DNA of 13,108 nt from Thalassiosira profunda (taxonomy: Eukaryota > Bacillariophyta > Thalassiosirophyceae > Thalassiosirales > Thalassiosiraceae), in NCBI GenBank assembly GCA_036939355.1, contig JALLAP010000412.1:1-13108 (forward strand). The letters are read 5' to 3'. Positions 1-13,108 of this stretch are shown here, in pieces; position 1 is the stretch's first letter, and each line of letters begins with the position of its first letter. The notes beneath the pieces were generated by a model. That model was not told where the DNA came from and searched no databases. It worked only from the letters and a program-made list of their open reading frames with translations. The position numbers were made by a program, and so were the translations under genes.

Positions 1-128
1 TTGGTTGGTTCCACGTGGAGGAAAAAGTTGGCAGGAAACTTTTGGGTTTTCTACGGAGGAATAAGTATTTATTTTCATTCGCTACCGGCTTATTGACCCA
101 TTCCCTCACACATCGCCATCACGACGCG
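1..128 (+). promoter_or_regulatory. Upstream region of the first plastid-protein gene, with a G-box palindrome
   Basis: The window opens 128 bp upstream of the first credible ATG. It holds a perfect palindrome CCACGTGG at 11-18, which contains a CACGTG G-box core of the kind bound by bHLH and bZIP factors. The surrounding 19 bp (9-27) recur with one mismatch at 2920-2938, upstream of another signal-peptide gene. The reading frame of the first gene stays open leftward to about base 15 but has no earlier ATG, and that extension would mask the signal peptide. I therefore treat it as leader or promoter. A regulatory role is inferred from sequence only. Confidence 0.35.
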
Positions 129-1256
129 ATGGCGACCGCCCTCGCCTTGCTATCCCTGCTGGGGCATCTGGTATGGGCGTCTGCCTTTGTGCCACCGTCG
201 CCGGCACATGCTAGAATCCTTGTGGGCACTCGCCTGCGCGCCGCCACCCCACTGGTCCTCGTCGGCACCCCCGACGAAGCGTTGGCAGCGGCGATGGCCC
301 TCGCCGCGCGAGATGTGCTGTCGAATGCATCAAGCCCAGACCAAAGCAGGTCGCCGATCCCTCCCGCACAGCCGGTGGCACACTTTGACGCTCCCGCGGC
401 AGAAGGCACCCATAAAAAGCATCAGCTGTCCACTGAAACGATAACCTCGTTGCAACACGCGCTCCTGTATTTGGGGCCATCACTCGAAGACTACGAGAAG
501 ATTCTTGCACATTCGCTTCAGCTGCTGTCGCGCATTGATGAGAGTGGCACCGAGCCGATGCTGCACTCGAGCATCGACTTTGGGGGCGACGAAGGTGCTG
601 CGCAGATGGAGTCCCTATCTCTGGTCCGCAACCGCTTCTCATTTCTGGGGCTGCATTTGAGACCTCCTTCAAACGCAAAGGAGGAGGGATTCATAATGTC
701 GAGAGATGAAGCCGAACTGTGGGGAAATCGACTGCATTATTTGTTGGAGGGTGGCCCGCCAGCAGCTGTGACAATGGACGTGCGGACACATCTGGCGATG
801 CTTCAAGCCAACTCGTTGCCAAAAACAAGAGGGGTGTTGGGCGAAAACGACAAGTGGGCGATATGTGGAGCAATCCAGGATGGGTTCTACGTCGCCGATG
901 GTGGCCTGCTGTTGGAATATCAATATGACTACGAAGACCCTTTTGGAGGCTGTGATCCGCTGCTCCGTCCGAGCGCTGGGTATGTCGTGCCGGCGGCGAG
1001 AGCAAAATCAGGGGACATAGCAAACGACGATGCATATGCAGCTGCCTACTCGGCGTTGGTGGGTTCGGGTCTCAATCGGATAGACGCCATCTCCATCGCC
1101 GCTGCGGTCAAATCGTTGTTTGGAGAAGCGGCACCGCCCTCATACACTTGGAGGGCCATCGATCAAATCGCAGATGCCAGTCGAGAGGCGAGACAGCAAA
1201 TGAAAAAAGAGGACGGTCTCTCCCGGAAAATGTACAAAGAGTTTGGCTATCAATGA
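129..1256 (+). CDS. Predicted plastid-targeted protein of unknown function
   Basis: This is a 375-residue single-exon protein. The ATG at 129 was chosen because it gives a classic heterokont bipartite presequence: a hydrophobic signal peptide (residues 1-19) ending in ASA, then Phe20 in the motif ASAFVPPSPA, then an Arg- and Ala-rich, acid-poor transit-like stretch to about residue 41. In diatoms and other secondary red algae, Phe at +1 after the signal peptide directs passage through the inner envelope into the plastid. The mature part has a low-complexity segment and then a better-structured second half. That half includes a WAICGAIQDGFYV stretch and a helical C-terminus (AISIAAAVKSLFG, then Ala-, Lys- and Glu-rich sequence) ending in KMYKEFGYQ. 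I recognise no enzymatic domain and assign no function. The stop lies 25 bp from the 3' end of the opposing decapping-enzyme gene, so the transcripts probably overlap. Targeting is well supported; function is unknown. Confidence 0.8.
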   Translation: MATALALLSLLGHLVWASAFVPPSPAHARILVGTRLRAATPLVLVGTPDEALAAAMALAARDVLSNASSPDQSRSPIPPAQPVAHFDAPAAEGTHKKHQLSTETITSLQHALLYLGPSLEDYEKILAHSLQLLSRIDESGTEPMLHSSIDFGGDEGAAQMESLSLVRNRFSFLGLHLRPPSNAKEEGFIMSRDEAELWGNRLHYLLEGGPPAAVTMDVRTHLAMLQANSLPKTRGVLGENDKWAICGAIQDGFYVADGGLLLEYQYDYEDPFGGCDPLLRPSAGYVVPAARAKSGDIANDDAYAAAYSALVGSGLNRIDAISIAAAVKSLFGEAAPPSYTWRAIDQIADASREARQQMKKEDGLSRKMYKEFGYQ

Positions 1257-1281
1257 ATAGACCCATTAAACAATTAATCAT

Positions 1282-2475
1282 CTACTCACCATCATTGCTC
1301 TCCCTTAAATGTTGCTCAATCAAGCTTTGCAGAGGAGTGCCCTTCTTGAGCTTGTATGTGATTGTCCGTTTGCAGTAATACTCCGGATCCAATTCCAAGT
1401 TCTGCACGACATCGCGCAGCAAGTGCCCGCGCTCCACCGAGCAGCCAGTCTCGTTCTCCAAGCGAGTGAAGTGCACATGAAAGTGGTAGAACTGAGGGTG
1501 GTAATGGATGAACACTCGAATCTGGTCCTCCTCGACGCCGTACACTTCTTTGATTGCAGCCAGTCCCTTCCGTTCCATTTCGTTTAGCAACGGTATGTGC
1601 TTACCCCTAAGGTCGCGAAGACAGGAAATGTCGCTTTGCTTTGCAATTCCGAGGCAGTACAAGTCCACTGTGGAGGGGTGCTTGTGCCACTCTTTTCTGG
1701 GTGTTGTGAGCGGAGGAGGGTGCGTTCTCCATTTCGTATCGACATTCACTATAAACTTGTCATCGTTCGCCAACAGCCGTTCCTTCTCCTTCTTGAGTTC
1801 GATGATGTTCGTGATCCAGGAGAGGCTGCCGCTGTCCACGATGGATTGGATGTAGGGCTTCACAACAGTGTTGTACATTTCCGGCGTTTCGTGGACGAGC
1901 ACGTGGCCGAGCGACGGCATGGCGCGGGATACCTGCCTGGCAGAGGCCGGGGTGATGAGTTCCACGTCGAAGGAGCCAAGTTTGGATGCCGCTGCAGACG
2001 CCGAACTATCAGTGCCATTGTCGCATGTTGTTGCATTTGTGGCCAACTTTGCATCAGAGCTTGGTCTCGCCTCGTAGTAACTGTATTCGGCGCCGCTCTC
2101 GGACTTGAGCGCAAAATTGTATCGTTGCAGAAACGATACGATTTCTTCGCTGGCTTTCGGATCGTGCTGCAGCAGATTCCTCTCCGGAAATTGGCCCTTA
2201 TCGATATCCTCCTGCGAGACGACTGGATTGCTCCCCAAGAGCGCCTTGTGAAAAGGCACGAGCGTCAACTTGAGGAGCGACGAGGTCGCATTGGATACCT
2301 CATCCTCGTTGTTTTCGTCAGGCTGCTGGATAACTTCGGTGTGGGAGAGCAGCAGCGTTGCGTGCTGATCCGACGTCGTTAGAGACTGCACCTTGCAGCC
2401 CTCCTTGGCAAGAATGTCGAGAGGAGTGGCCCTCCTATCCGCTGATTTGGCATCGGATGTCGATGTTGATGCCAT
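1282..2475 (-). CDS. DCPS: Scavenger mRNA-decapping enzyme DcpS (m7GpppX diphosphatase, HIT family)
   Basis: This is a 397-residue single-exon protein. DcpS hydrolyses the capped fragments (m7GpppN or short capped oligonucleotides) left after 3'-to-5' mRNA decay, releasing m7GMP. The diagnostic HIT signature HFHVHFT is at residues 331-337, with His333 as the expected nucleophile, preceded by FIHYHPQFY as in animal and fungal DcpS. Other family features are the ETPEMYNTVVKPYI segment (about 196-209), the WITNIIELKKEKERLL helix (about 220-235), SCLRDLRGKHIPLL (about 284-297), and the VERGHLL and LELDPEYY motifs after the HIT site. Residues 1-190 form the less conserved domain-swapped N-terminal half. 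A 25-residue acidic, Ser- and Ala-rich insert near 140-165 makes it longer than the human enzyme (337 aa). The ATG at 2475 sits in a good context (ACAATGG), and two CCAAT boxes lie upstream. The family call is very secure. Confidence 0.96.
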   Translation of the reverse strand: MASTSTSDAKSADRRATPLDILAKEGCKVQSLTTSDQHATLLLSHTEVIQQPDENNEDEVSNATSSLLKLTLVPFHKALLGSNPVVSQEDIDKGQFPERNLLQHDPKASEEIVSFLQRYNFALKSESGAEYSYYEARPSSDAKLATNATTCDNGTDSSASAAASKLGSFDVELITPASARQVSRAMPSLGHVLVHETPEMYNTVVKPYIQSIVDSGSLSWITNIIELKKEKERLLANDDKFIVNVDTKWRTHPPPLTTPRKEWHKHPSTVDLYCLGIAKQSDISCLRDLRGKHIPLLNEMERKGLAAIKEVYGVEEDQIRVFIHYHPQFYHFHVHFTRLENETGCSVERGHLLRDVVQNLELDPEYYCKRTITYKLKKGTPLQSLIEQHLRESNDGE

Positions 2476-3265
2476 TGTAATTCTGCGCTCGGTATCCTAC
2501 TCAGCGGCAACTGAAGAGCTACAGCGCGCATTGCATTGGCCATGCAACTGTAAATTGGATGAAACTTTCAATCCTCAGTTGGTTGATGTGAAACTTTCAC
2601 GCGGGTGCCTGACTTGTCGAGTCTGCGTCGGTATCTTTTTGCAACTCAGTGCACACACGTGTCCTTGGCTGAATGGCCAACCTCCAGCTGCCCCAATCCC
2701 CGTCGCCTGCGTATAGAGCCGTCGATAGATCTCCCGCGGGTGTGAGAGGAGGTTCCCGACACCGAAGCCGGGCAAGGACCTACCAAGGAGCAGCGAGTGC
2801 GACAACGACACAAGGGGCATGCAAAGTAGAGGCGAGGCTGGGCGGACGGCGAGCCGGCGAGGAGGGCAACTAAATCAATCTTTCTGATCAACGTAGGAAT
2901 CAGTACTAAACAGGTGCAATTCCACGGGGAGGAAAAAGAAGGCCTGGAAGCAAGCGGCCGGAGCCGGAAGCAAGAGCAAGAGAGGGCAAGAGGCTCGCCC
3001 GCCGAGGAACACAACGGCATGCAACGTGGGCAAGAACGTCGGCGCGTCGTTGATCACCCATTATTTCTGTCGCATAATCCGACGAGTTGCAATCAACAAC
3101 TGCAATTGAAAGGGACGTCGTGCGCAGCGTCCACTCCACCTAAGCTTGGCTGTCTGATCTTCATTCAGGTGCACTGTCCGCTCCTAAAGCGCTCGGGCAA
3201 GCCTCTGCCTTCGCCGTCGGCAGCCCCCTCATTCACTTCCAATCTCCCCCACATAACAATTCGTC
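2476..3265. promoter_or_regulatory. Divergent intergenic region between the DcpS gene and the signal-peptide gene
   Basis: This 790-bp stretch holds no convincing gene; its open frames lack signatures and compete with one another. It must contain the start regions of both flanking divergent genes. Visible elements are two CCAAT boxes oriented toward DcpS (ATTGG at 2535-2539 and 2554-2558), two copies of the palindrome TGAAACTTTCA at 2560-2570 and 2589-2599, and a purine-rich A/G tract at about 2926-2993. There is also a 19-bp near-copy (2920-2938) of the sequence upstream of the first plastid gene, and TTGCAA-type motifs at about 3090-3110. The boundary between the two promoters cannot be placed. 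Confidence 0.55.
2560..2599. repeat. Pair of 11-bp palindromes TGAAACTTTCA
   Basis: The sequence TGAAACTTTCA occurs at 2560-2570 and again at 2589-2599, 29 bp apart. Each copy is a perfect inverted repeat around a central C, and the second extends by one base pair on each side (GTGAAACTTTCAC, 2588-2600). They lie 85-125 bp upstream of the DcpS start codon. A spaced pair of symmetric sites in a promoter suggests a dimeric transcription-factor site, but no specific factor can be named. Confidence 0.4.
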
Positions 3266-4036
3266 ATGACGAGATTCACATCCGCCGTCGCGGCCATGAT
3301 ACTCTCATGCACCGTCCCCCGCGGCGATGCGTTCCAAACTTCCCAAATGCTCCCGATGCGGGTCGACCCCATCCCGAAGATGGAAATACAACAACGTCTC
3401 GGCCTCAAAGAGAGCGACCCGATCAATAATGCGAGCACGTTATCAATAGGCTCGGGTCCCAACATGGGATACGCGCTGACGAACGAGCACGAGGTCGTCT
3501 GTCCTGTGAGCGGGGCCCACCAGGGCATACTGTGCACGGCCTCCCTCTCAAACTCAATAGAGGGGGAGAACGCGGAATCCATCGCGAACAACAACGAGCT
3601 GATCTCGCAGGCAATCTTATCAGGATCGTTGGCGGCCAGCATCAGGAATCGGTGCAAGGATGGGAGCAGCGTGTACTATCTCCCGTATGTCATCACGCTG
3701 GTGGAATCATTGGTGGCAGAGGAGGTGGGGGGTCTTGACTTTGGGGAGATGGTGTTCAACAGCGGAGGACTTGAGACGAACGAGATATTGATGGATTGCA
3801 GCGGGGACGAGAAGGAGAGCGCGATGCTCTACGCCTGCAACACCCAACAAGATGCCCACAGTGCGACGTCAGACGTGTACCTCCTCCCGTCGTCGGGGGC
3901 GGGGAGCTGCTTGAGATTTACGGTCGACTTTAAGGTCGCAACGATCAACCTGCAACAAATTCGAAGCTTTGGGGATAGAGACTCCGTGACGCCGCTGAGG
4001 CCTGATGTGTGGCTGAAGGACGACTACAGTTACTAG
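3266..4036 (+). CDS. Signal-peptide protein of unknown function, possibly plastid-targeted
   Basis: This is a 256-residue single-exon protein. The N-terminus has a signal peptide with hydrophobic core AVAAMILSCTV and a probable cleavage site after GDA (residue 22). Phe23 then takes the +1 position, a weaker version of the ASAF plastid motif seen in the first gene. A Met- and Pro-rich segment (MLPMRVDPIPKMEIQQRLGL) follows. The mature protein contains several cysteines (in CPVSG, ILCTAS, NRCKDG, MDCSGD, YACNT and SCLRF) and a hydrophobic helix YVITLVESLVAEEV. I recognise no domain. The cysteines would also fit a secreted protein, so plastid delivery is only a suggestion. The TAG stop shares bases with the stop codon of the fucosyltransferase gene on the other strand (CTAG at 4033-4036), so the two coding regions overlap at their last codons. 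Existence of the gene is well supported; function is unknown. Confidence 0.75.
   Translation: MTRFTSAVAAMILSCTVPRGDAFQTSQMLPMRVDPIPKMEIQQRLGLKESDPINNASTLSIGSGPNMGYALTNEHEVVCPVSGAHQGILCTASLSNSIEGENAESIANNNELISQAILSGSLAASIRNRCKDGSSVYYLPYVITLVESLVAEEVGGLDFGEMVFNSGGLETNEILMDCSGDEKESAMLYACNTQQDAHSATSDVYLLPSSGAGSCLRFTVDFKVATINLQQIRSFGDRDSVTPLRPDVWLKDDYSY
4033..4036. other. Shared CTAG: overlapping stop codons of convergent genes
   Basis: The palindrome CTAG supplies TAG to both strands. The plus-strand signal-peptide gene stops at 4034-4036, and the minus-strand fucosyltransferase gene stops at 4033-4035 once its last intron is removed. The coding regions therefore meet tail to tail with no intergenic base, and each 3' UTR must be antisense to the other gene's coding exon. 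Confidence 0.75.
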
Positions 4037-5344
4037 CCGCTTACTGAGCTTTGGTGAATTTCTTCTATGCCCTTGTCGATGTCCCGCCAGCTTATCGGCT
4101 GCCGAGGAAACAGGAAGTTAGAGACAGCAGAGGCAAATAATAGAAGAAGGAACACAGAAACTCACAAACTCGCGCATATAGATGGGCTGGGGCGGAAGAG
4201 AAGGAGGTCAAAGGAGCTGCCAAACAAAAGAGACAAATGGACATGGAATCAACGCAGCTCACCTTCTTCACGGGCATGTATTGCTTCATTTGCTTGTGCC
4301 TCTCATCGGGGAAGAAATAGTAGCTGTCCATCGTCCCGTCCTCGTAGCTTTCTAGCTTGTGTTTTGCGATGTAGTAACCTCTCATCCGATTGACGTATCC
4401 GCTGAGGGTCGACCACCAGGTTCCATAGAACACTCTGCCTTTGGACGCCACCAGTTGATCCAGCATGCCATAGTAGTTGGTATTGATTCCTTTGAGCAAA
4501 TCCTGGAAGTCGTCAAGGAACACCACCTCGTAATGCTCTTTGAAGGGCGCAAAGAAGGACTTGTCCCTCTCATCGGTTGCAATGTACAGCAGTCCGCCTT
4601 CCTCCAGCTCCGCTTCGCTCTTTGCAATGAGCTCCTTCGCTTCCAGCCTCGTTTTCTTGTACTGGAAGTCTCCTCGTCTCACATGCATGCTGTCAAACAG
4701 ACCGTCCTTCTTCGACCGCCTTCGCACGGCTTCCACAACTCGTGCGGCGGCGCACATTATTTCGTCAATATAACGGAGATGATCTCGCACAAATCTTTTG
4801 CTCCAAAGATCGGCCTTCCAATTGGCAAAGAAGATGAACGCGTAGAAATGGGTCAGCAACCGGGTGCCCTTTTCTGCGGGAAAATAGAGCACGGGGGCCT
4901 CCTGCAGCTGTTTGTCGTATATGCACAGCTCGTCCCGATCGGCCAGCATCTCTCGCATTCTCTCTTCCATGGGAGCGTCCACCGGCACCGGCTTTCCCTC
5001 AAACTCCTCCAGAGATGGCCGTTTCCGCCCATCCTTCTCGGACATCATATCTTTGTGCGCTTGTCGCAGTTTGTCGATTGCATCGGCACCCTTTTCCGTT
5101 GGAATTGCCGCTATACAGTCCGATGGATTCCACCCTGGATTCACGCCAATCTTTTTGTAGTAGCTCTTCACCAACTGGGGCGTGATCTGCGTATTCTCTT
5201 TCCATATTTCCGGCTTGCCCGTTGCAATGTTGAGTAGCTGTCCAGTTTTCCCGTAGCGATGGAGGAATTCCTCCGACGTGATGACATTGAACCCCTCGTG
5301 CTCCACTGCTAATGAGTCCAGATGGAAGAAATCTCCAAAGTCAA
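4033..5344 (-). CDS. 3' part of an interrupted GDP-fucose O-fucosyltransferase-like gene (catalytic C-terminal region)
   Basis: This part holds two exons. The large exon, 5344 down to 4263, opens in frame at the insertion border with DFGDFFHLDSLAVEHEGF. Family motifs follow in order: SMHVRRGDFQYK, the GDP-fucose-binding Arg motif (residues 419-425 of the reconstructed 580-aa protein); LLYIATDE (about 451-457); and YGMLDQLVASKGRVFYGTWW with STLSGYVNRMRGYY near the C-terminus. A GTGAGC donor follows codon AAG at 4263. The intron is 4099-4262 (164 bp), and the acceptor CTCGGCAG joins in phase to the last exon, 4098-4033, which encodes PISWRDIDKGIEEI and a short tail before TAG. Without the intron the frame would run into an implausible Leu/Phe/Ser/Cys-rich tail. 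There is no start codon or membrane anchor here; these lie 5.4 kb away at 10724-11414. Expected role is transfer of fucose to glycoproteins in the Golgi or ER. In this configuration the part is separated from its promoter. Confidence 0.88.
4099..4262 (-). other. Last intron of the fucosyltransferase-like gene
   Basis: On the minus strand the intron begins GTGAGC, directly after the in-frame codon AAG, and ends in the acceptor TTTCCTCGGCAG. It is 164 bp, clearly longer than the 61-85 bp introns elsewhere in the window. Removal is phase 0 and yields a C-terminus with the PISWRDID motif and a stop that fits the compact gene end. The call rests on splice consensus and protein plausibility, not on transcripts. 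Confidence 0.75.
5334..5344. repeat. Left copy of the 11-bp target-site duplication
   Basis: TCCAAAGTCAA occurs here at the inner edge of the fucosyltransferase 3' part and again, identically, at 10724-10734 at the edge of the 5' part. Both copies code for the same residues (DFG) in the fucosyltransferase frame. Collapsing them to one copy restores the gene exactly. This is what staggered-cut insertion leaves behind. The true duplication could be a base or two shorter if the element ends in matching bases. Confidence 0.85.
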
Positions 5345-6398
5345 GCGAGTGGGGCGCGGCCTCTCGGGCGACGCGTCGGCGTCCTCGACGCGTCGGCAGA
5401 CACCAGCCGTGTGAAGACTCAGAACATTATATGGGCGTTAGTAAGCTTGAAGCTTGACGGCCAGCTGGATGCACGATCCGTCCATCCTTCAATCCCTCAT
5501 TTGAGGCTCTCGCTGTTGGCGATCTTGCCCAGACGTCACGAATTCGGTCACATACAGTCACATGTGATCACAAAGAGACTCACCTTCACCAAGCAACGCA
5601 ACGCCCCGCGCTGGTGCACCACTCCCCAACAGGTCATGGCGGCGTCGTCGCTCCTCCACTTGGGCGCCGGCCAACCGGCGATCGGCCAATCTCCTCGGTG
5701 GCGGTGCGCCCCTTATCGTACCTGCGGCGCTTCCAGCGACGCGAGTGGATGTCGCTCACCGATCCCCCCAACTCGGGCGGTCGGCCGCACCCAGCTTCGG
5801 CTCCCACCATGAGCGGACGATGCGCCCTTCGTCCGAGGCCGCGGCCTGATCCGTGGCCAGAATCGACGACCTACGAGACATTAACCGCCCGAGCAGGATG
5901 GCGTCGTTAGCGCCGGGCGGCCCGCGGGCCGGGTGGTGTGTGGTTGCGGTGATGTGCAAGCTGGTGCCTGCACCTCTCTCTCGCCGAGCGAACCTCGCGC
6001 GGTCGACGCCCCGCCTGCTTCGCCTTCCCCTCCCGCGTCGGGTCTTGTCCTGCTGGTGTCGTGGTGGTGCACCCGAGATCGGCATCGTGCGATTATCAAA
6101 TCGTTCCGGGCCTCTTGCTCTCTCGTTGGTGCACACACCGGTCCGGGTCGATTCCCTGCCGCCGCGGAGGCTTCGACTGACTGTGGTTGTTTGCGCCAGA
6201 GCGAGCTCTTGCACGCACGGCGTCCGAGGTTTGTGTGGCAACAGCGGGGGAATCGTGATTGAGTGGTCGTGGTGCTCCACCTCCGTCGCCGGTCTGCTGG
6301 TCGAGTAGGCAATTGATCACGAGACCGTGCGGCGCATACACCCCCCCCACCGACGCTTCCAGCGCGCCCACCAGTTGATTTCCATTTGTTTTGCAACG
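5345..6398. other. GC-rich non-coding left part of the insertion
   Basis: This stretch of about 1.05 kb shows no believable gene. Its open frames on both strands are Arg/Pro/Ser/Gly-rich shadows of GC-rich DNA, and one runs straight across the insertion border. Features seen are two 12-bp copies of CGACGCGTCGGC (5369-5380 and 5386-5397), a tandem AAGCTTG pair near 5446-5459, the palindrome TCACATGTGA near 5560, and a 14-bp perfect palindrome CGGCCCGCGGGCCG (5918-5931). It probably supplies the promoter and 5' leader of the insert's gene, and perhaps the binding sites needed for mobility. Confidence 0.4.
5369..5397. repeat. Twin palindromic motif CGACGCGTCGGC near the left border
   Basis: Two identical 12-bp copies (5369-5380 and 5386-5397) are separated by GTCCT. 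Each contains the perfect 10-bp palindrome CGACGCGTCG. They begin 25 bp inside the left border of the insertion. Subterminal repeated palindromes are common recognition sites of transposase-like proteins, which makes this a candidate site. No matching copy is seen near the right border. Confidence 0.5.
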
Positions 6399-6479
6399 GT
6401 GAGTGCGCTTGATTTGATCCTTCTTTGCTCTTTGATTCGTTTGCAATCTCCCACTCTCACAGCTTTTCCCTTTCCTCAG
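6399..6479 (+). other. Putative first 5'-UTR intron of the insert gene
   Basis: A strong donor (GTGAGTGCGC at 6399) follows TTTTGCAACG. A long pyrimidine-rich stretch ends in the acceptor TTTCCCTTTCCTCAG at 6479, giving an 81-bp intron. The size and signals match the coding introns downstream. No coding frame ties the upstream exon to the zinc-finger protein, so this would be an untranslated leader intron. It is unproven without transcripts. Confidence 0.45.
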
Positions 6480-6910
6480 ATACGTACCTAGAATGGGTAC
6501 GTGGTACGCGCTATTTCCCTCTCCACCAACCCCCAACCCGCATGCGCCATCTCATGAAGGACCAATCGACCAAGCCCAAGCCCTCCCAACCCAACCCCCG
6601 TCCTTCGTACCTCCGACGGGCGACCATACGCCTCCATTCGACGCCGCGCTGCTCGTCCAGCGCCCCTCCACGTCTCCAGCCATCATCTCGCGCACATTTT
6701 GGACGACGCCAACCAGCGTCCACCCCACCACCCCTCGCCTCGACATTACCAGGGTGTTAGACGCCTCCGCGCCGAGCCTTCCAACGCCCCTCAACTGCTA
6801 TCCCACCCACCACACGCGGCGACGTCGTTGGGTACCCCCTGGGCCTAAAATTGCAGCACCCCATTGATATCATTTGCAATATTTTTTGCAAAGGACGAAG
6901 CAGCGGCAGG
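6480..6910 (+). other. C-rich putative leader exon with a 124-codon upstream ORF
   Basis: The sequence between the two putative leader introns is conspicuously C-rich and G-poor on the plus strand. An ATG at 6493, just after the splice acceptor, opens a 124-codon frame that ends at 6867. Its product would be Pro-, Thr- and Ser-rich with no recognisable domain. The composition follows from the C-rich DNA, so I regard it as an upstream ORF or chance frame rather than a gene. The frame in phase with the downstream ATG has a stop at 6758-6760 and no later ATG, which supports translation starting at 6992. Confidence 0.3.
6869..6879 (+). promoter_or_regulatory. ATCATTTGCAA motif upstream of the insert gene
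   Basis: This 11-mer lies 113 bp upstream of the insert gene's ATG, followed by a T-run and another TTGCAA. The identical 11-mer recurs at 12032-12042, two bases upstream of the ATG of the right-edge gene. Recurrence just ahead of two plus-strand start codons suggests an initiator-like or leader motif. This is inferred from the two copies only. Confidence 0.3.
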
Positions 6911-6991
6911 GTGAGTTGCAATGATAATGCTCTCGTCGCAACAATTATGTGATGCTCTTATTGACACATCTGCGATTTATTTCTTCTGAAG
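6911..6991 (+). other. Putative second 5'-UTR intron ending at the start codon
   Basis: The donor GTGAGTTGCA at 6911 and the acceptor TTTATTTCTTCTGAAG at 6991 define an 81-bp intron whose last base directly precedes the ATG at 6992. Splicing would put GGCAGG immediately before the start codon. The signals are as good as those of the coding introns. It is not confirmed by a reading frame because the upstream exon is untranslated. Confidence 0.55.
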
Positions 6992-9900
6992 ATGGTTTGG
7001 AAATGTCTTTGGTGTGTAGAGTTCAACATCCGCGATGATAGAAAGAATTGCCGGCATTGCGGTGCACCCCGGAATGCAGCTGATACGACGTGGACCGCCA
7101 ATGCAGCCAGTGGCAATGCATTGAGCTCGGCGAGTGGCAATGCATCGAGCACAGCGAGAGGCAATGCAGCGAGGGCAGCGTATGCAGGGACTGCATCGAA
7201 TGGCAGGGCGAATGGCAATGCTGCAAAATCCAATGCTGCAAGTGCTACAAAATCCAATGACGAGATCATCGTGATCGATTCGGACAGTGAGAGCGAGGCT
7301 GACAAGAAGCCAAGTGCCACCACGATCAATAGAAATGCAGTAGCCCATGGAAAGAAGGACGATGATGCCATCATTATTGACTCAGATAGCGAGGAATCAG
7401 CTTTGGGGGATGGCGAGGGAGTGATAGAGATTGACGGCCAGCTGGGAAGGAAGAAGGCGGAGAGCATGGGCGCACAGCCAGAGAGGAAGAAGAGGAGGAC
7501 TGTGACTTTGTCGCCCACTGGCAAAGGTATGTAGGCGTGGGCTGTATCGACTGCCCTCTCTCAAATCAGTATCTGACATTTCTCTGCAGACGATGGCAAC
7601 GGCCATGCTGCTGGCTTCAGCTCGACAGACAGTGGGATGGACGTGGGGATGGACGCGGCGATCAACGCGAGCATGTCCGGGCGCAGGAAGAGCGGCGACA
7701 CGATGGACATGGTCGTCAAGGGTCACAGCTCGGACATGGCGATGACGGGCGCGAGCAAGCCCGGCGCGGGGAACAGCGGCAGCTCGTCGGGCATGTTGAT
7801 CGACGCGAGCGGGCCTGGCACGCTGAAGAGCAACGGGGGCTACGGGCCTTGGGACAGGAAGAGCGGCGCCTCGATGGCGATGAACATGGCCAGCGCGTCC
7901 GGCGCGGAGAAGGGCGACAGCTTGGACATCGGGAGCGGGCCCAGCGCGAGCAAGCCCGGCGCGGGGAACAGCAACAGCTCGTCGGGCATGTCGACCGGCG
8001 ACGACTGGATGGGCATGACGGCGAGCAGGGAGGCGCTGAAGAGCGAGAGCACATCAGAGGAGAGCTCGAACAGGCCCAGGAAGAGCAACGACTTGATGGA
8101 CATGTTGGCCGAGGTGAGCGGGCCCGGGCAGAGCAACGACTCGAGCGTCGGCGGGAAGAGCGACGACTCGAACGGCATGGCCAGCACGTCCGGCAAGGGC
8201 GGCATCGTGGGCATGGCCAACGCGTCCGGCAGTGCGAGCAAGTCCGGTGCATTGAAGAGCGACGACTCACTCAGCGTTGCAAACCCCTACGACGCCATTG
8301 AAGAAGCCTTGGAACGACTCAAACAAGATCCAAGTGATGCTTCTGCGGCAGCAACCCTCCTGAAGAATGGTGAGAATTCGAGACTTTTGGCACCCTCGTT
8401 TCTAGCACTTCGTCTCACATCTGTTTGCAGTCAACTCCTGCCTCGCAGATCACACCAGGCGGGTGTTCCCTTGGACGGGAAAGACCACCGGAGGGTCGAT
8501 GACCAAAGAACAAATGGAACTCTACGGCTTGATCTACGTTATAACAGGCGCACTCGGCAATGCCTGGACGACAATCCACGACCGTGGCTTGATGCCTGGT
8601 GGAGTTAACAAGATGTCAATCCAAAATAGGCTGACGCCTAGTACGGGTATGAAAGCGAAAAAGTTCCAGCCCATTATTGAGGCTGTGACCCCGGCGCGCA
8701 ATGCCATCATGCTGATGTCCGCGGCAGAGAAAAAGCTCGAGGTCCTGAAGGTCGAAGCAAAGATTGTGCTGAAACAGAAGAAGGTGCTTGACAGCTTCTT
8801 CAGCCCTGTGTCCATTGCAGACAAAGCATACAGGGCCGCAGAAGATGCGATCACAGGCGTCAAATTCTCCGCTTTGAGCAGCAGCGCCAACGGCTTTGCT
8901 GCGACGTCAAGGCAAAACACGACATTCGATGGAGAGGTGGTTGTCGATCCTGTCCTTCTCCAGCTGATTGCGGAGAACTCGCCCAAAGTTTGCGTCACCA
9001 ACCTACCAAACAGCAAAGGACGGGCGCTGTTGCGTGCAGCTCTGGATGCCATCCAAGGTGGGGGCATCTTGTGGGATCGACTGGCGGTGCCACAGCGGAA
9101 GGGCATTCTAGCGGTACGTCTCTTGTTTCCCTTTGTCTTCCGCATCTATTGCGCTGACTCAATCCCAACCAATACACAGGCCGTGGAGAAGAAGCAAACG
9201 ATCTTTGAATACAATCCAACCACTCAGAAATATCATTACCAGAACTACCTGATGCATGTTGTCAATGGCTGGTTTCACGACAAGAAGAAGCAAATCAATT
9301 TTGCCAAAATGAGAGAGGAAAGCAGAGAGTCGTGCCCCTTCGATGAGCTCGACATGACCGATCCGGCAGTCTATGTGGCGGGCAAGACAGACAGTGCCGG
9401 AAGCAAAGTGCTCGACCAGTTCGTTGCAAAGTTTGGAGAAGAATTCTTGTCCAAGGACACTACACGCGAGCGCAACGGGGAAATCGTGAACGTGAGCAGC
9501 CATTGCTTTGATGTGTGCTTTACAATCCATGCAATTTCTCATTACCGATGCCTATTCAGATCGCCAGTGCGAAGTTCACTACTTGGGCTATGCAGCCGGA
9601 CGGCAATGGTAATTGTGTCCTCCGGGAGGGTGATGATAAACGGCATGCGATTCGTACGTTATTGAGAAGCCGGGCCGAAACGGCTGCGATGCTAGCTGGG
9701 GCCAAAATTGACCCAGCGGATGTGGGCGAGTACGACTACATCATCGTGCAACGCGGGCAACGCGGCGGCTCTCAGAGTAAACGCAGCGATTCTGAAGGCA
9801 GGGCCAAGATGGTGGAGCTGGTTGAGGTGCATGTGCCTTTATATCGAACAGGATCGAGTGCACTGGTGATCCAAGGCGTGTCCAGTCTTTGGAAGGACAT

Positions 9901-10710
9901 GGGCGGCAGGGTTCTCTACCAGACGGCTGATGGGAAACTCCACGCGTTTCCAGAAAATCAGTGGGCGCGTCATGTAAGTCAGAAATGTTCGTTGTTGTAT
10001 AATCTCGTCCAACTCACAAACATCTTGTCTCTCCGTTGCCTTGATAGATCGACCAACTCTTCCGAAGTAGATGCGAATCTGTCGAAGAGAGCGCAGACGA
10101 GGAAAAGCTCAAAGTCGATCTGGAAAAGATCGACAAAGACGAGTCGATCCTCCCGGAGGACAAGGCGGCCGCGAAGCAGAAAGTGAGGAGAGCGTCCAAC
10201 CCCTACCGCACCTGCTTGGTGTACAACATCAGAGTGAAGTTCCAGAACCGCTTCAACGGTCACGAAGGAAGGTGGCCGACGGTTGACGAGGTTCCGGAAC
10301 TGCTGGGCTGCGAGTTGGAACTTTTTGCAGCGACAATCGTCATTGGGCAACTCGATGAGTTGGTCGAGGGCATTCTCAGCGGACAGACGCACCTCGATCA
10401 CGCCACCTCGCTCGAGGGCTGCGGGTTGCGAGCTCGGGCTAGTGTGGATGGCAGGAAGGAGGAGGATCCGGCCGTGACGAGGAAGAAGAAGTGGCACCAT
10501 TCGAACTACAAGCTCTTGGAAGCTTCTCTCAACAAGGGCAAAGGAGGAGCGAGGGGCGACGACAAGAAGCGCGTCTGGGACGACAAAGTAGATGGTGGGC
10601 GGTGGGTCGAAACTTGTGATACAAAGGCTGGCGACGAGGAAATCATGGAGAAGCGAATTGCGTTCCTCCGCACGAACAACTCCAGGTTCTACAAGAACTA
10701 CAAGAACTAA
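6992..10710 (+). CDS. Six-exon RanBP2-type zinc-finger protein with SUMO-interaction motifs, cargo of the insertion
   Basis: The exons 6992-7526, 7590-8369, 8431-9113, 9180-9491, 9560-9973 and 10048-10710 join in frame to 1,128 residues. Every intron (61-74 bp) has GT-AG ends. Residues 3-23 form a RanBP2-type zinc ribbon (Trp3, Cys5, Cys8, Asn12, Cys20, Cys23), a fold that binds RNA or ubiquitin-like proteins. Residues 32-90 are Ala/Asn/Ser repeats. Two SUMO-interaction motifs follow, IIVIDSDSESE (92-102) and IIIDSDSEE (127-135), plus a weaker VIEID (144-148) and a basic nuclear signal ERKKRR (164-169). Residues 180-405 are a Ser/Gly/Met/Asp-rich disordered linker. From about 415 to the end lies mixed helical sequence I cannot assign, including a charged helix (about 920-955) and a basic C-terminus ending KNYKN. 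It is probably a nuclear protein working on SUMO-modified or nucleic-acid targets. Whether it moves the insertion is a hypothesis. Confidence 0.8.
7109..7180 (+). repeat. Three 24-bp degenerate tandem repeats in exon 1
   Basis: The units at 7109-7132, 7133-7156 and 7157-7180 each start AGTGGCAATGCA or AGAGGCAATGCA and encode an eight-residue Ser/Gly/Asn/Ala unit (SGNALSSA, SGNASSTA, RGNAARAA). They form the linker between the zinc finger and the first SUMO-interaction motif. Shorter GGCAATGC echoes flank them, consistent with recent slippage expansion. Confidence 0.7.
7527..7589 (+). other. Coding intron 1 of the insert gene
   Basis: This 63-bp intron has donor GTATGT and acceptor TTTCTCTGCAG, in phase 1 (codon G|AC). 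Without splicing the frame stops at a TAG inside the intron. With splicing it continues into the long exon 2 frame. Confidence 0.85.
7751..7991 (+). repeat. Two 46-bp near-identical copies within exon 2
   Basis: The segments 7751-7796 and 7946-7991 match at 44 of 46 positions and encode the Ser/Gly-rich ASKPGAGNSxSSSGM unit twice. The spacing is 195 bp, a multiple of three, so the protein frame is kept. The whole of exon 2 is built from related GAGCGGGC, AAGAGC and GACGAC blocks, suggesting growth by internal duplication. Confidence 0.75.
8370..8430 (+). other. Coding intron 2 of the insert gene
   Basis: This 61-bp intron has donor GTGAGA after AAGAATG and acceptor CTGTTTGCAG, in phase 1. 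It joins the low-complexity exon 2 to the frame that opens VNSCLADHTRRVFPW. Confidence 0.85.
9114..9179 (+). other. Coding intron 3 of the insert gene, in frame and stop-free
   Basis: This 66-bp intron has donor GTACGT and acceptor AATACACAG, in phase 0. Its length is a multiple of three and it has no stop in the reading frame, so retention would insert 22 mostly hydrophobic residues instead of breaking the protein. The splice signals and the uncharged insert favour removal. Confidence 0.7.
9492..9559 (+). other. Coding intron 4 of the insert gene
   Basis: This 68-bp intron has donor GTGAGC and acceptor GCCTATTCAG, in phase 0. It joins the frame ending GEIVN to the frame starting IASAKFTTW. 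Retention would shift the frame and stop soon after. Confidence 0.8.
9974..10047 (+). other. Coding intron 5 of the insert gene
   Basis: This 74-bp intron has donor GTAAGT and acceptor TTGCCTTGATAG, in phase 0. It joins NQWARH to IDQLFRSRCESVEE. The acceptor tract is weaker than the others, but the frame switch requires it. Confidence 0.8.
10690..10707 (+). repeat. Two tandem 9-bp repeats at the right end of the insertion
   Basis: The 9-mer TACAAGAAC is present twice in tandem, ending three bases before the insert gene's stop codon is complete and about 16 bp from the right border. It encodes the repeated YKN tail (KNYKN) of the cargo protein. The repeat may be part of the element's terminus or simply protein repetition. 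Confidence 0.5.
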
Positions 10711-10723
10711 ATCGTCTCCTTGT

Positions 10724-10734
10724 TCCAAAGTCAA
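10724..10734. repeat. Right copy of the 11-bp target-site duplication
   Basis: TCCAAAGTCAA is identical to 5334-5344. To its right the fucosyltransferase exon 2 continues in frame (HQKTDFDFG on the minus strand). To its left the frame runs into foreign sequence and stops. Confidence 0.85.
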
Positions 10735-11414
10735 AGTCCGTCTTCTGATGCGAATCGGCTTTGCCCAGCAAATAGAATCTTTGCTGGGGCGGCAACACGA
10801 GCGTCCTTCCCATTGCGTGCGACATTACCAGTGCTGATTCCATTGCCATCCGAATGTTACTGCAACGAGAAAGAATTGATGAGCAAGATGCATCAAGAAG
10901 ATACATAAACATACATCACAATATCAGATAGGTACAACACTCACTTCCAGCCGCCGTGGTCCGGCTCGAACGCCAGAAAGCGCTCCGCCTCGTCCATGAA
11001 CGGACTTTTGTAGCTGGCATCGGAGGGTATGTCCGACCAAAACGCCATTTCCCTCTCGGCATACTCGTCTCCCGGTCCACCGTACTTTCCGCATCGCAGC
11101 CCCGCCAATTTGTGCCCGTGGCTGCTTGCGTTTGTTTGCAATTGCGGCTCGTCGGCAACCATTGCACCTCGACGCTGCACGTAATCGTCCGTCTCGTGCC
11201 GGCTCGTCCGGAATCGCCCCTGGAATTGGCGGTGCGCCAGCTCGTGCACGTGCTCGTCGTGAAACCGGTGGTGGAATTGGATGTTGATGGCGGCCACCGC
11301 GAAGGAGAGCAGCGCGAATGCGAGGAAGAGGCGGTTGGTCTTCAGTTTGGTGGCCGGTTGCTTGGCACTGGAGGCACCGGCGCCGGGCGCAGAGATGGGA
11401 GGCGTGTCCGACAT
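10724..11414 (-). CDS. 5' part of the interrupted GDP-fucose O-fucosyltransferase-like gene (membrane anchor and donor-binding start)
   Basis: Exon 1 (11414-10945) starts with ATG and encodes a short cytoplasmic tail, one membrane span (LFLAFALLSFAVAAINI, about residues 29-45) and a stem: a type II Golgi or ER topology. The donor GTGAGT at 10944 and acceptor TCGTTGCAG at 10860 bound an 85-bp phase-2 intron. Splicing creates GGWNNIRMAMESALVM (154-169) and GRTLVLPPQQRFYLLGK (174-190), the N-terminal GDP-fucose-binding signature of the O-fucosyltransferase superfamily. Exon 2 then reaches the 11-bp duplication. Read-through into the insertion adds 26 unrelated residues and stops at 10643, giving a 228-residue product without the HVRRGD motif, so presumably inactive. 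The missing remainder is at 4033-5344. Family assignment is strong from the motifs in both parts; the acceptor substrate is unknown. Confidence 0.88.
10860..10944 (-). other. First intron of the fucosyltransferase-like gene
   Basis: This 85-bp minus-strand intron has donor GTGAGT after GGCTGGAA and acceptor TTTCTCGTTGCAG. Splicing in phase 2 creates the conserved GGWNNIR motif across the junction, which is strong support. Unspliced, exon 1 ends at once in a TGA. Confidence 0.9.
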
Positions 11415-12044
11415 CTTACTTCAACACAAGATGTGCGCACTCTCGCCGTACGGCCATAGCAGTAGACTCCCCTCCTAACGCTGCGCTGCCTCGGTTTGCC
11501 CCGCCGCCGCGCCGGGTGGCTGGTTGCTTCGGGGTCAATCAAGCAAGAGGAGGCGCGCGGGGAGGCGCGCGGGTGGTCCAGCCCGTGACGGATCGTGACA
11601 AATGTGTCACGGTATGGATCACGTGAAAAGTAAGACGTGGTCTCGCTCCTCTTCTTCCGCACCACAGAAGCCCCCACGCGTCGATGAAACTGCAAGCTGC
11701 TCCGCCCCGACGGAAAAAGCTGGCAGCAACCGTCCATCTGCATCGTTGCAGCTGTTGGATTGGTCTCATTTTCAATGGCCCTGGCTGGTTGAGGGGGGGA
11801 TCTCGGCGCGAGCGGAGGAAGTTGATTCGATGATGCACCGAGCGAGCAGATTCCTCGCGCTGTCATTGTTACGATCTGCACGAGATTGACGGTGAAGGTG
11901 AACCTTGCCGCGACGGTGGACGGGCACGCAAAGAAAAATCATTGTCGAGAGATTGGCTCGCCAGCATCGCCCCAGCGCCATCACATTGCAACAGGAGGCC
12001 ATTCTACCATTCTACTGCAAGCTACTGCAACATCATTTGCAACA
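11415..12044. promoter_or_regulatory. Divergent upstream region of the fucosyltransferase and right-edge genes
   Basis: This 630-bp stretch has no gene I can support; open frames on both strands overlap and lack signatures. It holds a 12-bp tandem repeat GGAGGCGCGCGG (11549-11572), an 18-bp hairpin-capable site (11594-11611) and a CACGTG box (11620-11625). A tandem CTACTGCAA pair lies at about 12012-12030, and ATCATTTGCAA at 12032-12042 sits just before the right-edge ATG. It should contain both start regions. Confidence 0.5.
11594..11625. promoter_or_regulatory. Inverted repeat CGTGACA-N4-TGTCACG with adjacent G-box
   Basis: CGTGACA (11594-11600) and TGTCACG (11605-11611) form a perfect 7-bp inverted repeat around AATG. 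A further CGTGAC lies just upstream (11584-11589) and a CACGTG palindrome at 11620-11625. Clustered TGAC/GTCA half-sites with a G-box resemble bZIP or bHLH binding sites. They lie about 180-210 bp upstream of the fucosyltransferase ATG. The role is inferred. Confidence 0.4.
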
Positions 12045-13108
12045 ATGGGGCACAAGGTCAGCACGACGCGCCACGAATCCCACGGCCGCTCCCACGCGGC
12101 CGTTGCAACTTCCCTGGCGGTCCTGCTGGCGGTGGCCGCGGCCTCCGCCGAGGTGGCCTCCGCCAACAGCTGCTACGTGGCATCACGTGCACCTTGGCTG
12201 CCGTCAGCACACGCTACTCACCTAGGCACGTCCGCGACGTCGTCCCTGCGTGCCACGAGCACAAGCACGGCCATTGCCGCCTCCGTTCCCCCGCCCAACT
12301 CCCGCCTGGGGCGGCTGCGGCAGCGGTCCCGGTCGGCGTCTCTGCGGCAGCTGCCGGGGACGAAGCGCAGCCAGCGCAAGGGCAAGGGCGGGAGTTTGAG
12401 GAGTTCGGACCTGGGATATGCCACGCACGGCTCGCATTACGCACAGTTCACGGACACTAACAGCGACGACGACGGGGAACCGGTATGGAGGGGCTTCTCT
12501 CTCCGGCCTGCTAATGCTATGGAAGAGGCGGGAGAGGGTGAAAGATTGCCAGATGCGGTGAGGGAGGCTCCGGAGGCGGTCTCGTCGGAAGGACCTGACG
12601 CGCCAACCCTCGCGTATAAGCAGCAGGGCAAAGTCACCAACTCCAAGCGCAAACGGGCGCGGATGCTCCGATTCATAGACAACCGCCTCGGCCGGCAATC
12701 CAAAGCCGCGTCCAAATCCAAATCGTCCACCGATCGCCGCCTCGTCTACGAACAACGGAAAGCGGCCTGGGCTGCCAAATACACCTCCGTGCACACCCTG
12801 AGAAAGTCCTTTGGGAAGAACAAGAATCGGATCTGGGGCGATTACGACCCCACGTCCACGCGAAAATTGTACCACACGCTGCTTCCCAAGGCGCTGTTGG
12901 AGCTGAGGGGATTGCAGGACGGGCTGCTGTCCAACAGAGACGAGGCTGACGAGGTTGACGAGAAAAAGAAAAGTAGACAGAGTGCCCGGGCTCTCAGCGA
13001 TACAGTCGTCGATGATGGCATCGACTCCTATCTGCAGCAAGAGCTCAAAGAACTGGCCCCGCTCGCCTACCAAGCAAGGCTCGCGGCCAAGAAGTACGCC
13101 CGGGAACG
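12045..13108 (+). CDS. Secretory/plastid-type basic protein of unknown function, open to the right edge
   Basis: From the ATG at 12045 (context ACAATGG) the frame stays open for 354 codons to the window end without a stop, in GC-rich sequence. The start is followed by a basic stretch and a hydrophobic Ala/Val/Leu core (residues 18-40, ending EVASA) typical of a signal peptide, then a Ser/Thr/Arg/Ala-rich, acid-poor stretch (41-120) like a plastid transit peptide. No Phe follows the likely cleavage site, so plastid targeting is less certain than for the first gene. Downstream are a basic KRKRARMLRFIDNRLGR segment (about 211-227) and conserved-looking helical sequence KNKNRIWGDYDPTSTRKLYH (about 268-287) followed by TLLPKALLELRG. 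LAPLAYQARLAAKKYARE ends the visible part. The overlapping minus-strand frame of 283 codons is judged a shadow. The 3' end is outside the window. I recognise no domain. Confidence 0.7.
   Translation, partial: MGHKVSTTRHESHGRSHAAVATSLAVLLAVAAASAEVASANSCYVASRAPWLPSAHATHLGTSATSSLRATSTSTAIAASVPPPNSRLGRLRQRSRSASLRQLPGTKRSQRKGKGGSLRSSDLGYATHGSHYAQFTDTNSDDDGEPVWRGFSLRPANAMEEAGEGERLPDAVREAPEAVSSEGPDAPTLAYKQQGKVTNSKRKRARMLRFIDNRLGRQSKAASKSKSSTDRRLVYEQRKAAWAAKYTSVHTLRKSFGKNKNRIWGDYDPTSTRKLYHTLLPKALLELRGLQDGLLSNRDEADEVDEKKKSRQSARALSDTVVDDGIDSYLQQELKELAPLAYQARLAAKKYARE

Follow-up and report, generated by a model that had tools for sequence, protein, structure and literature searches.

An interrupted O-fucosyltransferase gene

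The window analyzed here is a 13,108-nt stretch of Thalassiosira profunda DNA (contig JALLAP010000412.1, hereafter C411, positions 1 to 13,108) from a 21.8-Mb assembly with 1366 contigs (GCA_036939355.1). It encompasses a minus-strand gene for a GDP-fucose protein O-fucosyltransferase whose second coding exon is split by an insertion, and the insert carries, on the plus strand, an intact gene of a small orphan family. The features of the locus, in window coordinates, are the following.

4033..4098, minus strand: O-fucosyltransferase exon 4 with the stop codon (from the joined frame)
4166..4186, minus strand: O-fucosyltransferase exon 3, 21 nt, encoding PIYMREF (from the joined frame and the T. 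profunda protein)
4263..5344, minus strand: O-fucosyltransferase exon 2, downstream piece with HVRRGDF, IATDE and GTWWSTLSGYV (PF10250 positions 53-326)
5334..5344, no strand: target-site duplication, left copy, TCCAAAGTCAA (exact match search)
5345..10723, no strand: inserted core, 5,379 bp, missing from the syntenic sister contig C342
5345..6991, plus strand: 5' noncoding part of the insert, with patches like intergenic DNA on contigs C13 and C29
6992..10710, plus strand: predicted orphan gene, 1128 aa (exons 6992-7526, 7590-8369, 8431-9113, 9180-9491, 9560-9973 and 10048-10710)
6992..7078, plus strand: RanBP2-type zinc-finger-like N terminus (W-x-C-x2-C...C-x2-C; pattern found by eye in the translation)
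10711..10723, plus strand: 13-bp gap between the orphan stop codon and the right duplication
10724..10734, no strand: target-site duplication, right copy, TCCAAAGTCAA (exact match search)
10735..10859, minus strand: O-fucosyltransferase exon 2, upstream piece before the insertion (PF10250 positions 13-52)
10945..11414, minus strand: O-fucosyltransferase exon 1, with the start codon at 11414 and a membrane span (N-terminal order as in the T. profunda protein P0004)

Joining the flanks over one copy of TCCAAAGTCAA yields an open O-fucosyltransferase frame of 587 codons with GT-AG introns and a stop codon at 4033. The initial annotation had described a continuous joined frame of 580 codons; the open frame stands, whereas the length does not, and the difference equals the 21-nt exon 4186-4166, which may have been left out of that count. 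The two sides of the insertion match adjoining segments of the O-FucT profile (PF10250), namely positions 13-52 on the 10702-10861 side (E = 0.0007, 19.7 bits, by itself below the curated cut-off) and positions 53-326 on the 5342-4263 side (E = 5.2e-17, 62.9 bits against a cut-off of 31.5), so that the C-terminal half places the protein among the GDP-fucose protein O-fucosyltransferases. The host thus matches the profile across both halves, but the domain is interrupted mid-way in the C411 copy. When the joined frame is aligned with 11 related proteins, the residue spacing at the insertion site is the same in 10 of them, the exception being P0013, with 12 additional residues upstream. Read from the duplication into the insert, the host frame continues for 26 codons and then hits a stop before the HVRRGDF part is reached, which suggests that this copy of the fucosyltransferase is inactive. 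Elsewhere in the assembly, a diverged O-fucosyltransferase paralogue is found at C1333:126-1373, in three separate exon pieces with 45-71% identity, and further paralogues are present on C125 and C1216.

The 11-mer TCCAAAGTCAA occurs at 5334-5344 and 10724-10734 and has no further copy in the window (two matches against a mean of 0.02 in shuffled sequences, with none of the 200 shuffles containing two). Exact border repeats of this length were reached by none of 300 shuffles, and the repeat stops at 11 bp, without extension on either side. Both the exact duplication and the 5,379 bp between its copies had been noted before, and both hold. Searches for tandem repeats, transfer RNAs and Rfam families in the window revealed nothing bearing on the insertion.

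The empty sister site and the age of the insertion

Contig C342 is syntenic to the window and contains the empty site. Window positions 95-5344 align with C342 2672-7918 at 89.7% identity and positions 10744-13108 with C342 7919-10280 at 85.9%, and nothing lies between the two blocks (the alignment leaves out window positions 1-94). C342 possesses a single target copy, CCCAAAGTCAA, with one mismatch to TCCAAAGTCAA of the window. Its fucosyltransferase is 100% identical to a T. profunda protein over the 400 aa compared and, by eye, agrees with it in the N-terminal exon as well. Given the empty sister locus, the open joined frame with the spacing typical of the family and the adjoining Pfam matches, the insertion proposed in the initial annotation is genuine; it is specific to the C411 lineage and is flanked by a perfect target-site duplication of 11 bp.

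An assembly or binning chimera would be an alternative source of such a structure, and the fragmentation of the assembly, together with the presence of two diverged copies of the loci examined, gives this idea some footing. A misjoin is nevertheless not expected to produce a perfect 11-bp duplication whose two flanks belong to one gene and keep the family register, and there is a second, independent case on contig C103 (see below), so that we regard a chimera as extremely improbable.

Directly to the right of the duplication, the window is 9 bp (3 codons) longer than C342 (C342 L026 7918/7919; window 5344/10744). Because all 11 aligned relatives have the longer form found in the window, this form is most readily taken as the ancestral state, with a probable deletion in the T. 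profunda copy on C342; for the same reason, we rejected the interpretation of this difference as a repair scar. Three codons are, then, missing from the T. profunda-like fucosyltransferase directly beside the insertion point of the other lineage.

The insertion is probably recent, as had been suggested from the lack of further decay in the two halves. This view is supported by the identity of the duplication copies, by the lack of any stop or frameshift in either fucosyltransferase half, and by the low ratio of nonsynonymous to synonymous substitution rates (dN/dS) between C411 and C342, which is 0.046 in the C-terminal half (0.166 in exon 1 and 0.115 in the 42 codons of the exon 2 piece). The window copy has 6 derived residues and the intact T. 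profunda copy 8, with 19 ambiguous, in line with the same conclusion.

Six gene pieces of the locus show a synonymous divergence (dS) between C411 and C342 of 0.19 to 0.47 (the seventh, 12013-13106, gave no useful alignment). Within window positions 126-5342, neighboring genes span this range from 0.19 (open reading frame 3266-4033) up to 0.47 (C-terminal half of the fucosyltransferase), and this unevenness could reflect exchange between the copies. The 55 bp at the end of the window (13054-13108) have a second match in C342, at 10299-10353 with 100% identity, just past the syntenic block. Relative to C342, C411 may belong to a sister species or may be a diverged haplotype or a homeolog. Syntenic contig pairs with approximately 86-90% identity (C411/C342 and C103/C247) were found at both loci examined, and zinc-finger open reading frames on C57 and C60 likewise resemble each other; such pairs could be two lineages, haplotypes or homeologs. 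The T. profunda genome has been reported to comprise 41 Mb with 6% repeats (PMC11309476) and to have 26% BUSCO duplication although estimated to be diploid (PMC12159174).

The gene carried by the insert

The orphan gene, which the initial annotation had not identified, is an intact six-exon gene according to the predicted exon model, with GT-AG introns of 61-74 nt; the model is supported by intron positions in common with a relative on C103. The third-position GC content of the gene (0.69) is typical of the host, in which seven gene pieces gave values of 0.61-0.78. The protein has a serine-rich middle and a C-terminal half without a known family, and contains two acidic runs (DEIIVIDSDSE and DDAIIIDSDSE), which may resemble SUMO-binding motifs. 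Degenerate short repeats at 7104-7259 and 7669-8291, in exons 1 and 2, encode Asn/Ala- and Ser/Gly-rich low-complexity stretches.

The zinc-finger-like N terminus does not reach the curated cut-off of the RanBP2 zinc finger profile (PF00641): the window protein gives no match, and the C103 relative alone does, with E = 0.003 and 17.2 bits against a cut-off of 27. When a profile of both members was compared with the PDB, residues 4-36 matched Mdm4, ZRANB1, TRABID and RBM10 chains, only at E = 2.3-3.4.

The 1.65 kb of the insert upstream of the gene yielded no Pfam match in the 6 open reading frames tested. Patches of this region resemble intergenic DNA elsewhere, with 54 bp at 100% on C13 and 123 columns at 81% on C29. 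The former (window 5818-5871, identical to C13:23006-23059) is an alignment that ends at both sides, within a C13 stretch that is a mosaic of dispersed repeats; the C29 patch, searched by itself, matches only C29 and the window.

A second insertion of the same family

Two full-length searches and one last-exon search of the assembly, which give lower bounds only, identified C103 as the sole other locus of the family. The C103 relative has eight exons and encodes 1081 aa; it is collinear with the window protein and 29% identical overall, with 39% identity in the last exon. Each of the five introns of the window gene has an in-phase equivalent in C103, displaced by no more than one alignment column, and C103 has two extra introns. 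In the C-terminal part, conservation between the two members at codon positions 1, 2 and 3 is 0.472, 0.557 and 0.396, respectively, over 646 codons.

The C103 member also lies in an insertion. Its syntenic partner, C247 (87-89% identity), lacks 4,247 bp: the alignment breaks off at L004:3055 and picks up again at 7303, and 3 bp of C247 separate the two aligned parts. C247 is uninterrupted across the site, where a single frame of 1,524 aa includes ankyrin repeats, an FH2 domain and a match to CCDC53, whereas the insertion in C103 separates the ankyrin part from the FH2 part. The residues split in C103 resemble a WW domain by eye, with no Pfam WW call at E 0.01. The second member is therefore a lineage-specific insertion into an exon of an ankyrin-formin gene.

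In principle, the segment in C411 might be removed by splicing, as an exceptionally long intron of the fucosyltransferase transcript, and leave the host gene functional. The dN/dS values of the fucosyltransferase pieces look like purifying selection, as do those of the parts flanking the C103 insertion (0.106 and 0.178), which would fit this scenario, but the recent origin of the insertion accounts equally well for the lack of decay. Moreover, the minus-strand ends of the insert have no donor like those of the modelled introns (by eye, unscored), and the introns of the insert gene itself measure 61-74 nt; we consider a functional long intron very improbable.

A candidate mobile gene family

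Taken together, these observations make it likely, in our judgment, that the orphan family is a mobile gene family that moves as DNA, and that the segment in the fucosyltransferase gene is one of its insertions. According to this model, in a lineage close to T. profunda, the 5,379-bp segment entered coding exon 2 of the fucosyltransferase gene and brought along the intact, intron-bearing gene; the target was probably cut in a staggered manner and filled in, as the exact duplication at this site suggests; a second member inserted independently into the ankyrin-formin exon; and one process presumably moves both. Movement at the DNA level is favored because all five introns are common to both members. 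The family itself appears to be what moves because both of its members reside in lineage-specific insertions and the blocks aligned between the sister pairs contain no other large gap: in 17,841 columns (5330 + 2432 and 3808 + 6271), covering the window without positions 1-94 and the insert, and C103 positions 4317-18504 without its insert, the other 145 gaps are 38 bp or shorter. The encoded protein might conceivably make the cuts itself.

Several findings weigh against this model. With respect to the ends, the first and last 30 bases form terminal inverted repeats no better than shuffled sequences in either insertion; blastn of the 400-base ends gave two matches of 10-13 bases for insertion 1 (E = 0.12 and 0.47) and none for insertion 2. 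The two insertions have no common terminal sequence. Comparing the ends of one insertion with those of the other gave a 16-base match (E = 0.008), which was discarded as it lies in homologous coding sequence near the 3' end. A target duplication is seen at one of the two sites, being 11 bp and exact at insertion 1 but not above chance at C103, where the best candidate 11-bp duplication has 5 mismatches and is equalled in 257 of 300 shuffles. The N-terminal 386 aligned codons display no constraint of the kind seen in the C-terminal part (0.381, 0.435 and 0.404 at codon positions 1, 2 and 3). The copy number is low, and no short derivatives were seen in the assembly searches, one of which scored 1 of 2 candidates without listing C103 itself. 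Both loci were examined because family members sit there, and two members make a small sample.

No transposase, integrase or nuclease domain was recognized in Pfam, NCBIfam, PHROGs and PDB sequence searches, although a remote fold may have gone undetected; the AlphaFold models of two parts of the orphan protein were unusable (mean pLDDT, the predicted local distance difference test score, of 43 and 37). Weak family matches, to DUF5986 (E = 0.011), DAHL (0.017), MiaE_2 (0.033) and NOV1T2S5_fam (0.036), were judged to be due to chance, as were seven PDB sequence matches at E = 0.71-3.4.

Searches for relatives of the orphan protein were likewise negative within their scope. Among 5.8 billion proteins, an alignment of the last exon retrieved no homologue in 2447 candidates, whose lengths exclude full-length proteins, and residues 600-1128 retrieved none among the 7999 candidates sharing most words, which alone were scored; both searches could miss a full-length relative at 30-40% identity. 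No homologue was confirmed in IMG/VR (600 and 128 pattern matches), phage records or prokaryote genomes (83), and none of the public sets searched is a broad diatom genome set in six frames. Among the 32 RanBP2 finger matches in the assembly, the 10 places and the one on C13 that were inspected by eye are unlike the family, and one more is C103 itself. In the literature, no report of such an element was found at the level of titles and abstract openings.

Comparison with known mobile elements

Mutator-like elements generate target duplications of about 8-11 bp. The C411 insertion resembles these DNA transposons in its exact 11-bp duplication, in the coding gene inside and in apparent movement at the DNA level with introns kept, but differs from them in the lack of terminal inverted repeats and of a Mutator-like or other transposase domain, and the second insertion differs further in having no comparable duplication.

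Cryptons, DNA transposons with a tyrosine recombinase, have no terminal inverted repeats, and insertion 1 is similar to them in this respect and in its short direct border repeats. They have been reported from the diatom Phaeodactylum tricornutum, and the border repeats of CryptonS are 5-6 bp long (PMC3212892), compared to 11 bp here. Pfam scans of both members detected no tyrosine recombinase domain, and neither member has a recombinase match. Introners (PMC9860276) also insert into genes, but the present insert differs from them in its size of 5.4 kb, in its full gene and in that no obvious splice sites are seen by eye at either end.

With regard to retroelements, there is no long direct repeat at the ends, as would be expected of a long terminal repeat retrotransposon, and the insert gene has no reverse transcriptase match. 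Copying from a spliced messenger, as in long interspersed nuclear elements or processed retrocopies, is disfavored because the introns are retained in both members; in addition, no A-tract is present at the borders of insertion 1. Helitrons produce no target duplication and encode a Rep/helicase protein; in contrast, the 11-bp duplication is present here and the insert gene has no helicase match.

Self-movement or capture

Because neither the ends nor the duplication appear to be fixed, two readings of how the family moves are left, namely a self-moving gene with an unrecognized enzyme or the capture of fragments at breaks. In the stronger form of the proposed model, the orphan gene would encode a new eukaryotic transposase or integrase, the gene with its flanks would be an autonomous unit, and the length of the duplication would vary with the cut. 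It is consistent with this idea that the two members detected in the assembly both interrupt coding exons and are both specific to their lineage, that insert 1 ends 13 bp past the stop codon, so that the unit is close to the gene, that the N terminus is zinc-finger-like, and that in the C-terminal part the third codon position is less conserved than the first two. The lack of a known catalytic family and of usable structural models, the missing terminal repeats, a duplication at only one of the two sites and the unconstrained N-terminal codons speak against it, and we put forward this version only tentatively, as less probable than its negation.

Passive capture would involve end joining of a broken chromosome with a stray gene-bearing fragment, the 11 bp representing a filled-in staggered break and the C103 site a near-blunt one. 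The junctions indeed differ at the two sites and have no common ends, and the 5' patches of insert 1, including the 54 bp identical to C13, match other intergenic places. Yet each of the two fragments carries a complete and intact gene of one family that was seen nowhere else, and no other gap above 38 bp was detected in the approximately 17.8 kb of aligned sister blocks; on this evidence, we consider capture rather unlikely.

Returning to the mobile gene family, the presence of an intact orphan gene with a second, independently inserted member changes the meaning of the split fucosyltransferase gene. Since occupied and empty sites for two members are available in one assembly, the insertion borders are known within a few bases. 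A further, doubtful step would be to regard the family as a new superfamily of eukaryotic mobile DNA, in which an intron-rich gene would encode a recombinase of unrecognized fold, some 1,100 residues long and with a zinc finger at its N terminus, that inserts its own gene into exons of host genes without terminal inverted repeats and with a variable target duplication. What is seen here looks like a mobile gene of a kind so far unrecognized. Should the gene be able to move on its own, it would represent a eukaryotic mobile element that belongs to none of the families tested here, and one through which diatom genes have recently lost their function.

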